Below, piece after piece: positions 2,587 through 7,477 of a stretch of DNA of 40,036 nt (positions within the stretch are counted from its first letter, which is position 1; the number at the start of each line of letters is the position of its first letter). A program made the translations under genes and the position numbers. The notes beneath the pieces were generated by a model. The model ran no database searches. It was not told where the DNA came from and saw only the letters and a program-made list of their open reading frames with translations. Origin of the DNA: Bacillota bacterium (GTDB lineage: Bacteria; Bacillota_I; Bacilli_A; Erysipelotrichales; Coprobacillaceae); contig JAUNWT010000014.1 of the NCBI GenBank assembly GCA_030540195.1, forward strand, positions 1 through 40,036, read 5' to 3'.

Positions 2587-2710
2587 AAAAGGGAGTAGCT
2601 TGCCAAGCGTTTGGTTCACTTCTTCGTCAGTACAGTTATAAAATTTATAACTCGGAAAGTGATTGAATAGCGAGACTTTTACTGCAATGCAGTAGGAGTC
2701 CGCTTTTTTT
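2587..2710 (+). promoter_or_regulatory. yybP-ykoY manganese riboswitch with terminator expression platform
   Basis: The segment carries the hallmark sequences of the yybP-ykoY aptamer in order: AAAGGGAGTAGC at the 5' side, CGTCA, ACTCGG, then GCGAGACTTTT closing the aptamer on the 3' side. The closing strand GCG-A-GACTTT is also the 5' arm of an intrinsic terminator. It pairs with GCAGTAGGAGTCCGC around an AAT loop and is followed by seven T (2670-2710). Ligand-bound aptamer and terminator are therefore mutually exclusive, the arrangement of a transcriptional ON switch. The class senses Mn2+. The downstream gene is a cation antiporter. Confidence 0.85.
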
Positions 2711-2743
2711 ATACCTACTGCAAAATAAAAGAAAGGGGTCATC

Positions 2744-3670
2744 ATGATGATTAAACAAATTATTATTTTATTAGTAGGTTTTATTTTCCTCGTAAAAGGG
2801 GCTGATTGGTTTGTAGAAGGAGCCGCAAACATCGCTAAAAAATTGGGTATTCCTCAATTAATCATTGGTCTTACAATTGTAGCCATGGGAACCAGTATGC
2901 CTGAAGCCGCTGTTAGTATCACGGCTGCCATGCAACAAAATGCAGGAATTACTATTGGTAATGTGGTAGGCAGTAATATCTTAAATATTTTTATTATTTT
3001 AGGTCTTACCGCTTTGATCACCAATGTCAAAATACAAAAATCAACTATTCGTTATGAAATTCCCTTTATGATTTTTATAACGATCCTCTTAATTATTTTT
3101 GGTATAACGGATATGAAAATTACATTTCTTGAAGGAATTTTCTTTTGGATTCTTTTTCTGGCTTATCTTGTTTATCTATTTATCATGGCAAGAAATAGCG
3201 AAGAACAAGAAATAGAAAAAAACATACCTATTTGGAAATGTCTTCTCTTTATTCTTATTGGGGGAATCCTTGTTGTTAAAGGAAGTGACTTTGCGGTAAG
3301 TGGGGCCAGTACCATTGCTAGATATTTCGGTATGAGTGAACGTTTTATTGGTTTAACGATTGTGGCTTTTGGGACATCACTTCCTGAACTCGTTACTTCT
3401 GTAACAGCCGCAAAAAGAGGAAATGCGGGTATTGCGATTGGAAATATTGTCGGAAGTAATATTTTTAATATTCTTTTTGTGATTGGAACAACGTCTCTTA
3501 TTTGTAGTGTTCCTTTTGAAAATAAGTTTATTATTGATTCTATGATTGCAGTAATCGCTGGAATAGTTTTATGGTTTGGTACAATGAAGCATCAAGAATT
3601 AAGGAAACCTTGTGGCATTATTATGCTCCTTTGTTATGGACTTTATTTTATCTATTTGTGTTTGTTGTAA
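2744..3670 (+). CDS. CaCA family cation antiporter (YrbG-like)
   Basis: A 308-residue inner-membrane antiporter with about ten hydrophobic segments. The two inverted alpha-repeats of the CaCA family are clear: GTSMPEAAVS with GNVVGSNILN in the first half, and GTSLPELVTS with GNIVGSNIFN in the second. Relatives exchange Na+ or H+ for Ca2+ or other divalent ions. Because the gene sits behind a Mn2+ riboswitch, Mn2+ export is the most economical guess for its role; this is inference. AAAGGGG precedes the ATG at 2744, and a second in-frame ATG follows directly at 2747. A strong terminator follows at 3705. Confidence 0.9.
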   Translation: MMIKQIIILLVGFIFLVKGADWFVEGAANIAKKLGIPQLIIGLTIVAMGTSMPEAAVSITAAMQQNAGITIGNVVGSNILNIFIILGLTALITNVKIQKSTIRYEIPFMIFITILLIIFGITDMKITFLEGIFFWILFLAYLVYLFIMARNSEEQEIEKNIPIWKCLLFILIGGILVVKGSDFAVSGASTIARYFGMSERFIGLTIVAFGTSLPELVTSVTAAKRGNAGIAIGNIVGSNIFNILFVIGTTSLICSVPFENKFIIDSMIAVIAGIVLWFGTMKHQELRKPCGIIMLLCYGLYFIYLCLL

Positions 3671-3704
3671 ATTCTATTTACAAAAAAATTGCATAATAAA
3701 TTAG

Positions 3705-3737
3705 AAAATGTAAACGTCTCTCCGTTTACATTTTTTT
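3705..3737 (+). terminator. Intrinsic terminator after the cation antiporter
   Basis: AAAATGTAAACG (3705-3716) pairs with CGTTTACATTTT (3723-3734) over a six-base TCTCTC loop and runs into a T tract. It isolates the riboswitch-antiporter unit from the next gene. Confidence 0.85.
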
Positions 3738-3787: not shown

Positions 3788-4192
3788 ATGAGTCAAAGAA
3801 AAGAAAAAGTAAGAACATTGCATAAACAAGGTTACAATTGTGCACAAGCATTTTTATGCAGTTATCAAGAGCTTTTAAAGCTAGATGAAAAAGAACTTTT
3901 TAAATTAGCGGAAGGGCTTGGAAGAGGTATTGCAGGTTTAGAAGAAATGTGTTGTATTCCAATACTTATGGCAATGATTTGTTCCTATTTAGAAACCAGT
4001 GATGGAAATATAGAACATCCTACATCAAAACTTAAAAGCTATGCTTGTGGGAAATGTTTAGCCATGGATTTCAAAGAACAAGTAGGCAGTCTTTGTTGTC
4101 ATAAACTTTTAAAAGAAAATAAAGAGAAGAAAAGATCTTGTAGCGACTTATTAGAAAAAGGCGTTGCTATTTTAGATGAGTGTTTGAAATAA
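3788..4192 (+). CDS. C_GCAxxG_C_C family redox-active protein
   Basis: A 134-residue Cys-rich protein. It shows the spaced-cysteine pattern of the C_GCAxxG_C_C family: YNCAQA near residue 20, a Gly-rich stretch with GIAGLEEMCC in the middle, then ACGKC, LCC and a C-terminal RSCSDLL. Members are predicted redox proteins of unknown partner, often near transporters or metal genes. The central motif is less canonical here than the usual GCAxxG. The ATG at 3788 is preceded by GAGGTGAGGG. An upstream in-frame extension would begin inside the preceding terminator and is unlikely. Confidence 0.75.
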   Translation: MSQRKEKVRTLHKQGYNCAQAFLCSYQELLKLDEKELFKLAEGLGRGIAGLEEMCCIPILMAMICSYLETSDGNIEHPTSKLKSYACGKCLAMDFKEQVGSLCCHKLLKENKEKKRSCSDLLEKGVAILDECLK

Positions 4193-5146: not shown

Positions 5147-6310
5147 ATGAATTTTTTTAAACATTATAAAAATAGTTATTTAAGTTATTTCTTAATGTAT
5201 TTCTTCTTTTTCTTTTGTTTAGCGTTCTTCTCAGGATTTATTTCTGTTTATTTAATGGATCAAGGATATAGTGCTTCAGAGGTTAGCTTTGTGGTTTCTT
5301 GTTCTTATATCTTATCCGTTATTGTTCAACCCTTTATTGGTAAACTAAATGATCAATATGAATCAAGATATGTGAATAGTCTCTTATTATTGATTGCCGC
5401 AGTATCAGGAATTATCTTTATCTTTTTAAAGAATATTTATTTGATTGCTTTTGTTTATAGTTTAGTATTAGCAATTACTAATGGAACAAATCCTATTATT
5501 GAAAGAATGGCTATTCTTTCAAGATTTAAATATGGTTCGATTCGTGTTTGGGCAACCATTGGTTATGCCATAGCGACAATTATTGCAGGATTTCTTTATA
5601 AAAACATTGGACCTTATAGTCTTTATGTTTTCTTTGCGATAGGGGAGTTATTATGTGTGATTGGGATTTTAGGTACACATAGCATTTTACCACCTATGGA
5701 AAAAACAGAAGAAAAGATCTCAATGACATCGGTTTTTAAAATAAAACATATTCCTTTTTATTTAATTATTGTTTGTTTATTTTATGGCATTACTAATGTT
5801 CATCATCTTTATTTACCTGCTATGTTGAAACAAAGTGGTTTACCAATTAATTATGTTTCAACTGTTATCTTTTTTTCAACATTATCAGAAGTCCCTGTTA
5901 TTTTATTATCACGCTTTTATATGAATCGCTTTACCAATAAACAATTATTAATGAGTGTCTTTGTTTTACTTTTTGTCCAATTCTTTACTTTTAGTTTTAT
6001 TTCATCACTCATTATTCAAATCATCATTGTTTTTCTTACAAAAACCGTTGCAACCATGGCTTTTGTCATGATCAATTTAAGAATTATTTCAACTATTGTT
6101 GATAATGCAAGACAAAATACTGCATTATCCCTTGTTTCGGCTTGTAAAAGCTTTTCATCGATTTTATTTCAAATGTTAGCGGGATATTTGATTGATTTTA
6201 CCGGTTATCAAATGTTTTATTTTGTTTTATTTATTTGTAGTGTGATTGGTATGGTGCTGGTTTTCTTCTTTAAAGTACCAACCAATAAAGATTTAAAAGT
6301 ATTTCATTAG
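5147..6310 (+). CDS. MFS transporter (copy 1 of tandem pair)
   Basis: A 387-residue polytopic membrane protein with about 12 hydrophobic segments. Family-type signatures include KLNDQYESR after TM2-3 and a tight N-terminal YLSYFLMYFF helix. It resembles the LacY-like/MFS_1_like group of sugar or nucleoside symporters; the substrate is not readable. I chose the ATG at 5147 because AAGGAGG lies directly upstream; a longer reading frame would run into the divergent RpiR gene. The next gene, after nine bases, is a paralog beginning with an almost identical N-terminus. Confidence 0.88.
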   Translation: MNFFKHYKNSYLSYFLMYFFFFFCLAFFSGFISVYLMDQGYSASEVSFVVSCSYILSVIVQPFIGKLNDQYESRYVNSLLLLIAAVSGIIFIFLKNIYLIAFVYSLVLAITNGTNPIIERMAILSRFKYGSIRVWATIGYAIATIIAGFLYKNIGPYSLYVFFAIGELLCVIGILGTHSILPPMEKTEEKISMTSVFKIKHIPFYLIIVCLFYGITNVHHLYLPAMLKQSGLPINYVSTVIFFSTLSEVPVILLSRFYMNRFTNKQLLMSVFVLLFVQFFTFSFISSLIIQIIIVFLTKTVATMAFVMINLRIISTIVDNARQNTALSLVSACKSFSSILFQMLAGYLIDFTGYQMFYFVLFICSVIGMVLVFFFKVPTNKDLKVFH

Positions 6311-6319
6311 GAGGGTTTT

Positions 6320-7477
6320 ATGTTAAAACGTTATAAGAATAGTTATTTAAGTTATTTTCTCATGTATAATTTCTATTATTTATCATGGGCCGTATTTTCA
6401 GCATTAATTTCAGTTTATTTATTAGGAAAAGGCTTTAAAGCCAGTGAAGTTTCTCTTGTTGTTTCGACTTCTTTTTTAACATCCATGATTTTTCAACCTG
6501 TCATCGGTATGTTAAGTGATCGCTTTGATGTTAAAAAAGTAAACTTTGTCTTATTTGCGTTAGCCGCTATTGGTGGATTTGCCTTTATGTTTGCAGGAAA
6601 TCTAATTACAATTACTATTGGTTATAGTTTTGTCTTAACTTTAATTAATGGGACAAATCCAGTGATGGAAAAAATTGCTTCTTCATCACCTTATCAATAT
6701 GGAAAGATTAGAATTTGGGGAACAATAGGTTATGCCATTGGTTCATGGCTTGCGGGAATTATTTATCAATGGATCTCACCAGCGGCTATCTTTGTTTGTT
6801 TTGTCATAACAATGATTCTTTGTATCATTGGTTTACTTGGAACACAAACACCAGATGATTTAGCGCAAGAAAAAGAAGAAAAAACAAAAACAAGTACACT
6901 TTTACATAATCATCAATATCTTTATTATTTAATCATTGCTGCTATTTTCCAAGGGATTACCAATATGGCTAATACTTACATTCCTGCTATGTTTCAAAAC
7001 GATGGTTTACCAGTAGATCTTGTTTCAACAATTTTATCATTTGCGGTTTTATGTGAAGCACCTATCGTTTTATTCTCGCATAAATTCATGGATAAACTTG
7101 CTAATAAAAAGTTACTGATTATTGCTTATACAATGATTACAATTCAATTCTTATGTTATGCCTTTAATGTTTGGTTACCATTTAAAGTCCTTGTCACTTT
7201 ACTTACAAAACATCCTTCAGGAATGTTATACATTATGATCAACTTAAAGATTGTTAGTACCCTTGTACCAAAGGAACATCAAATTACTGCACTTGCATTT
7301 GTGCAAACTTTAAGAAACTTAAGTTCGATTATTTTTCAAAATATTGCCGGACAAATCTTAGATGTTTCTTCTTATCAAGTTCTATTTGCTTTATCTGTCA
7401 TTATTATCGCTATTGGTTTTATTCTTGTTTTCTTATTTAAAGTACCATCAGGAAAAGATCAAAAATTATTTAATTAA
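6320..7477 (+). CDS. MFS transporter (copy 2 of tandem pair)
   Basis: A 385-residue, 12-segment membrane transporter. It shares the start RYKNSYLSYFLMY, the GMLSDRFD loop, the KIRIWGTIGYAIGS segment and the C-terminal FKVPSGKDQKLF with the preceding gene. TAGGAGGG precedes the ATG, and copy 1 ends nine nt upstream, so the two form one operon. The pair could transport related substrates or act together; MFS proteins normally work alone. A terminator follows immediately at 7480. Confidence 0.88.
   Translation: MLKRYKNSYLSYFLMYNFYYLSWAVFSALISVYLLGKGFKASEVSLVVSTSFLTSMIFQPVIGMLSDRFDVKKVNFVLFALAAIGGFAFMFAGNLITITIGYSFVLTLINGTNPVMEKIASSSPYQYGKIRIWGTIGYAIGSWLAGIIYQWISPAAIFVCFVITMILCIIGLLGTQTPDDLAQEKEEKTKTSTLLHNHQYLYYLIIAAIFQGITNMANTYIPAMFQNDGLPVDLVSTILSFAVLCEAPIVLFSHKFMDKLANKKLLIIAYTMITIQFLCYAFNVWLPFKVLVTLLTKHPSGMLYIMINLKIVSTLVPKEHQITALAFVQTLRNLSSIIFQNIAGQILDVSSYQVLFALSVIIIAIGFILVFLFKVPSGKDQKLFN

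Follow-up and report, generated by a model that had tools for sequence, protein, structure and literature searches.

A putative yybP-ykoY class riboswitch with a three-way junction, predicted to control a CaCA antiporter gene by transcription termination in a Coprobacillaceae bacterium

Riboswitches of the yybP-ykoY class have been described upstream of ATPase, mntP and calcium:cation antiporter genes. In the L. lactis yoaB switch, Mn2+ and the paused polymerase are described as holding helix P1.1 (PMC11087558), and the Mn-contacting adenosine of loop L3 is given as A41 there and as A48 in X. oryzae (PMC6754395). The locus studied here resembles the yoaB switch, as published, in its L1/L3 core, in the invariant adenosine, in a P1.1 3' strand that passes to a terminator and in its ON logic (PMC11087558, PMC6754395); unlike yoaB, described with a four-way junction that includes helix P4 and with a P-type ATPase as its client, our locus has six unpaired bases where P4 would stand, and precedes a CaCA gene. 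The mgtA switch of S. pneumoniae is described as a three-way junction aptamer that activates transcription (PMC9495176, PMC11434433), which is the architecture seen here, but it controls an ATPase rather than a CaCA antiporter. The mntP leader of E. coli is a known Mn riboswitch (PMC9603457), called translational in one account (PMC11647493). The closest precedent in terms of the client gene is BP3410 of Bordetella pertussis, reported as a calcium:cation antiporter that exports Mn under a Mn-responsive yybP-ykoY switch, with transcription of the leader halting without Mn (PMC8546581); the likeness of our locus, again a yybP-ykoY switch 5' of a CaCA gene, is drawn from that published description. 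In Vibrio vulnificus, yrbG is listed as another gene under a yybP-ykoY switch (PMC13274385). Given these two precedents, the arrangement of switch and CaCA gene is already known from other bacteria, and the element described below is real but ordinary.

We analyzed a stretch of 40,036 nucleotides (the window) from a Bacillota bacterium of the family Coprobacillaceae, in which a leader runs from the end of a HAD phosphatase gene at 2547 to the antiporter ATG at 2744 and holds a promoter-like pair, an aptamer and a terminator, all on the + strand. Very likely, a metal riboswitch of the yybP-ykoY class with a three-way junction regulates this antiporter gene through termination of transcription, and by analogy with the described systems the antiporter is probably a manganese exporter. 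Read from the sequence, a candidate promoter lies at 2550-2578, with a -35 element TTGTTT (2550-2555), a 17 nt spacer and an extended -10 element TGATAAAAT (TAAAAT at 2573-2578), from which RNA is predicted to start near 2585; the corresponding hexamers in two congeners are TTGCTT and TAGAAT. The pair did not appear in the list from a consensus scan, since its -35 element matches at three of six positions and the scan threshold was four; we grade the pair as weak and the promoter as likely. The antiporter gene is followed by a terminator-like hairpin at 3703-3736, which points to a unit of one gene. In the surroundings, a gene for a C_GCAxxG_C_C putative redox protein (3788-4192) directly follows that hairpin, the two tandem HAD phosphatase genes at 857-1696 and 1708-2547 encode proteins of equal length that are 76% identical, and a second tandem pair at 5150-6310 and 6320-7477 encodes proteins that are 43% identical and presumably transporter-like.

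The preliminary description of this DNA had assigned the leader to the yybP-ykoY class and had proposed a search with the Rfam model, naming the absence of a match as a refutation. That match is indeed absent: RF00080 (Rfam 15) did not match the window at its gathering score, nor did it return anything up to an E value of 10 on the 241-base leader, and in the rest of the same genome it found one site, at 19.9 bits against a cut-off of 45. However, we attribute this silence to the model rather than the sequence, and regard it as weak evidence, since the printed consensus of RF00080, viewed on loci L032, L041 and L062, pairs neither P1.1 nor P1.2 and lacks the RAGAC strand, and since its cut-off was passed in none of the 244 genomes of the order (nor in any of 43 from the family or 295 from the phylum, all sampled and under stricter filters); it was passed in 2 of 14 control genomes. 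For the same shortcomings of the released model, RF00080 was rejected as the sole test. Matches of CRISPR-DR32 and Teg49 in the leader fall far under their own cut-offs and are ascribed to chance.

We therefore rely on a covariance model, R1, built from a MAFFT alignment (A1) of 24 aptamers of other genera, from which the window and its genus were left out. A1 contains 21 of the 31 RF00080 loci (L032-L062) and three antiporter leaders (L009, L012, L018); omitted were near copies (L035, L037, L042), a locus at the same site as L012 (L039), two in which no such core was seen by eye (L038, L060), a partial match (L052), two short loci (L053, L056) and one missed by the pattern of the script (L055). 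Motifs resembling GGAGTAG and GAC aided the choice of rows, so that letter conservation in A1 is partly selected, while the covariation of P1.1 and P1.2 is not. With the structure named by hand, 81.3% of cells in A1 are paired (96.7% in P1.1 and 100% in P1.2), compared with 65.0% in shuffles, both sides have changed in 17 of 20 pairs, a count that none of 500 shuffles reached, and the signal is destroyed when the pairing partners are slid. R1 matches the window at 2586-2682 with 47.1 bits and an E value of 3.6e-9, the next match in the window reaching 11.3 bits, and it also detects the mntP leader of E. coli (37.2 bits), which bears out the class assignment of the preliminary description. Across the whole genome it finds three sites (63.2, 47.1 and 45.9 bits), followed by one at 18.4 bits (E 1.28). 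Within the order, 195 of 244 genomes have R1 matches at E 0.01, compared with 23 of 244 for RF00080 at the stricter threshold of E 0.001. A further alignment of 52 rows (A2), fitted to R1 from sources chosen as known matches, pairs in 91.0% of its cells, a figure that leans toward the structure by construction.

The aptamer extends over 2586-2681. Its 5' strand UAAAAGGGAGUAGC starts at 2586 with the 5' strand of the switch helix P1.1 (UAAAAG, 2586-2591), which pairs with CUUUUA at 2676-2681, followed by the 5' side of L1 (GGAGUA, 2592-2597), whose columns are invariant in A1, and by P1.2 (GCU, 2598-2600, with AGC at 2669-2671). The window can form both P1.1 and P1.2, and both covary in relatives, as the class has them; likewise the L1 core GGGAGUAG (2591-2598) is present with its 3' partner RAGAC (2672-2676). 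P2 is the hairpin GCCAA[GCGU]UUGGU (2602-2615) of the constrained fold, with the differences among congeners confined to its loop. The 5' strand of P3.1, UCACUUCU (2616-2623), was placed manually against AAAGUGA (2656-2662) with a bulged C2622; in the free fold its bases next to L3 pair otherwise, and by eye these extra bases beside L3 are found only in the window and two congeners among the rows of A2. L3, UCGUCAGUAC (2624-2633), includes a CA that is invariant in A1, and its A2629 would occupy the position of the invariant Mn-contacting adenosine, as expected for the class; its 3' side, CGG (2653-2655), follows from the R1 match and A2. Between the two sides lies the P3.2 hairpin (2634-2652), closed by an A-U pair in the window and two congeners, and by G-C in 45 of 50 rows of the 52-row alignment. 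The 3' strand GCGAGACUUUUA (2670-2681), which comprises the P1.2, L1 and P1.1 sides, is common to the 5' arm of the terminator. Compared with this layout, the E. coli mntP leader has the same L1/L3 core, but by eye its leader contains P4, and no overlapping terminator was found there. P4 seems dispensable for members of the class, since it is also missing, as judged by eye, in 43 of the 52 aligned matches (50 distinct) and since a three-way junction has been described for the pneumococcal switch.

The intrinsic terminator (2670-2710) consists of a stem at 2670-2703 of 15 bp with one bulge and the loop AAU, and of seven U at 2704-2710; the stem alone is worth -20.1 kcal/mol, and one terminator is found where shuffles give a mean of 0.2. 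In the terminator fold, 2670-2681 pairs with bases of 2693-2703. The preliminary description had the aptamer and the terminator sharing a strand, and this holds for GCGAGACTTTT (2670-2680); by fold computation the P1 strands and the terminator are mutually exclusive. A terminator overlapping the 3' strand of P1.1 is found by script in 40 of 58 distinct R1 matches, under a loose rule that counts some short stems; among the 18 without one are E. coli mntP, as expected, and the CaCA leaders L110, L114 and L087.

The folding energies bear on a different explanation, in which the aptamer has degenerated and the leader is a terminator or attenuator carrying the relic of a riboswitch. The whole leader (2587-2743) is unusually stable (z = -3.24, with none of 200 shuffles as stable), while the aptamer part alone (2587-2682) is ordinary (z = -0.92, 38 of 200 shuffles as stable), so that the energy signal belongs to the terminator. 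That ordinary stability, the lack of an RF00080 match and the weakness of P1.1 in metal-free folding, where ViennaRNA without ligand terms lets it pair with a probability no higher than 0.13 as the transcript grows, would all fit a relic. However, the L1 block, the UC..CA and CGG of L3 and the 3' GC-RAGAC are all kept, and in congeners the aptamer is near-fully conserved as flanking non-coding bases drift; we consider a relic barely credible. Forcing P1.1 and P1.2 in the canonical aptamer costs 1.0 kcal/mol (-18.1 versus -19.1 unconstrained), and in the RNA that ends with the U tract the terminator is favored by 16.5 kcal/mol (-37.9 versus -21.4). With P1.1 weak in the metal-free state and the terminator far better, the choice between a functional switch's two states must fall during transcription, assisted by the ligand.

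The conservation itself is to be read with care. Records of Faecalibacillus intestinalis and F. faecis, which are probably the two congeners compared here, contain a 45-base stretch of the aptamer, and the window would accordingly come from a gut bacterium in or near that genus. Between the window and the two congeners 93 of 96 aptamer columns are identical, as are 29 of 29 at 2682-2710, 11 of 11 at 2711-2721, 18 of 22 at 2722-2743 and 29 of 38 just upstream of the aptamer. Identity is just as high in the coding tail of the upstream HAD gene (64 of 67 columns), and conservation alone therefore says little; with three sequences, the pattern in the aptamer is only suggestive. What the analysis shows is the class of the element, by covariance model, together with the mutually exclusive strands, this conservation in congeners and a recurrent association with genes for mntP, P-type ATPases and CaCA antiporters. 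The metal, its docking, the response of read-through and the export are what we infer for the functional riboswitch. Without metal, the strand 2670-2681 would leave the aptamer to become the 5' arm of the strong terminator, and transcription would halt in the U tract. At high Mn2+, L1 and L3 would dock around the ion and P1.1 would be held (2586-2591 with 2676-2681); the terminator then could not nucleate, polymerase would read into the CaCA gene, and its product would expel the metal. The ON logic put forward in the preliminary description is in agreement with the mechanism published for L. lactis (PMC11087558).

The controlled gene (2744-3670, 308 aa) is a CaCA antiporter, as had been supposed: it matches PF01699 (2.2e-70, in two stretches) and TIGR00367 (2.1e-70; 237.3 bits against a cut-off of 179.65), aligns to NCX_Mj (6.5e-45) and contains two Na_Ca_ex repeats with GTSxPE motifs. 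The other two R1 sites of the genome precede an mntP-CaCA pair (contig C139) and a P-type ATPase gene (C71); another CaCA copy (C19), 61% identical, has no R1 match. The mntP-CaCA order at the first of these (L101, G000:C139:17000-22500), behind a Mn-type switch, recurs, among the examined loci, in four further genomes from the genus and in one from another family.

These observations have to be weighed against the reading that Ca2+ is the ligand, either alone or on a par with Mn2+, and that the antiporter genuinely exports Ca2+. The family is annotated as Ca/Na antiporters; the window shares its three-way junction with the mgtA aptamer of S. pneumoniae, which is reported to bind Ca2+ more tightly than Mn2+ (PMC9495176) in a switch termed Mn/Ca-sensing (PMC11434433), and some yybP variants have been suggested to sense other divalent ions (PMC7266159). 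Yet the same mgtA report describes transcription as activated more strongly by Mn2+ than by Ca2+ (PMC9495176), and the window keeps the invariant adenosine in L3. One switch is common to mntP and a CaCA gene in the genome itself, and relatives without P4 are found chiefly ahead of mntP-like genes (26 of the 32 loci from L063-L097 that have a downstream frame, a biased sample in that L068-L097 were the 30 best scores when the order was searched). We therefore regard a Ca2+ switch as unlikely and favor Mn2+ as the ligand.

The preliminary description had also noted a complement to the 3' arm of the terminator. The arm, GCAGTAGG, is at 2689-2696 as stated, and the complement CCTACTGC occupies 2714-2721 rather than 2713-2720. 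The eight bases are unchanged in two congeners, and such a complement arises in 16 of 20000 shuffles, a count to be read knowing that the element was picked out after the fact. Pairing between the CCUACUGC element and the arm is worth -10.5 kcal/mol alone. We rejected it as an antiterminator for the termination decision, and the proposed fine-tuning of termination is unlikely, because the element lies 3' of the U tract and at equilibrium gives -31.0 kcal/mol compared with -43.2 kcal/mol for the terminator. Since it is transcribed after the decision, it would pair only after polymerase has moved beyond the terminator; being conserved and improbable by chance, it may shape the read-through RNA. 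A more elaborate scenario, in which an aptamer without P4 is tuned to both Ca2+ and Mn2+, the antiporter acts in gut Firmicutes as a relief valve for both Ca and Mn, and CCTACTGC traps the 3' arm of the terminator so that read-through mRNA stays ON, we hold to be very improbable.

How widely such switches precede CaCA genes was examined at 50 places in the same genome and 60 relatives, counting R1 matches upstream on the same strand at E 0.01. Sixteen of the 50 CaCA loci have a match upstream, which in 10 cases immediately precedes the CaCA gene (at 44-140 nt from the protein match) and in 6 is separated from it by mntP; the other 34 have none in the sequence covered, which for L024 and L029 amounts to only 90 and 780 nt upstream. 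A further CaCA locus with R1, L087, comes from outside this set. Bordetella, for its part, belongs to a phylum distant from that of the window's host. As an unusual client elsewhere, a Na/Pi cotransporter gene (PF02690) follows a Mn-switch match of 55.7 bits (L055:1549-1635, - strand). On a tree of 48 CaCA proteins, which has long branches, labels L024 as lacking a switch on 90 nt of upstream sequence and omits L109 (switch-bearing) and L120 for stops or length, the switch label needs 10 changes, at least nine of them on starred branches, and is mildly clustered (20 of 500 shuffles are as low). A single clade of switch-bearing antiporters is thus unsupported.

Taken with the R1 search, the current Rfam model misses many yybP-ykoY members in the order Erysipelotrichales. 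Our analysis adds evidence that antiporters of the CaCA family labeled “calcium” repeatedly serve as clients of Mn switches within the order, with at least nine gains or losses of the switch, and CaCA genes that lie behind such switches merit a second look as Mn exporters.
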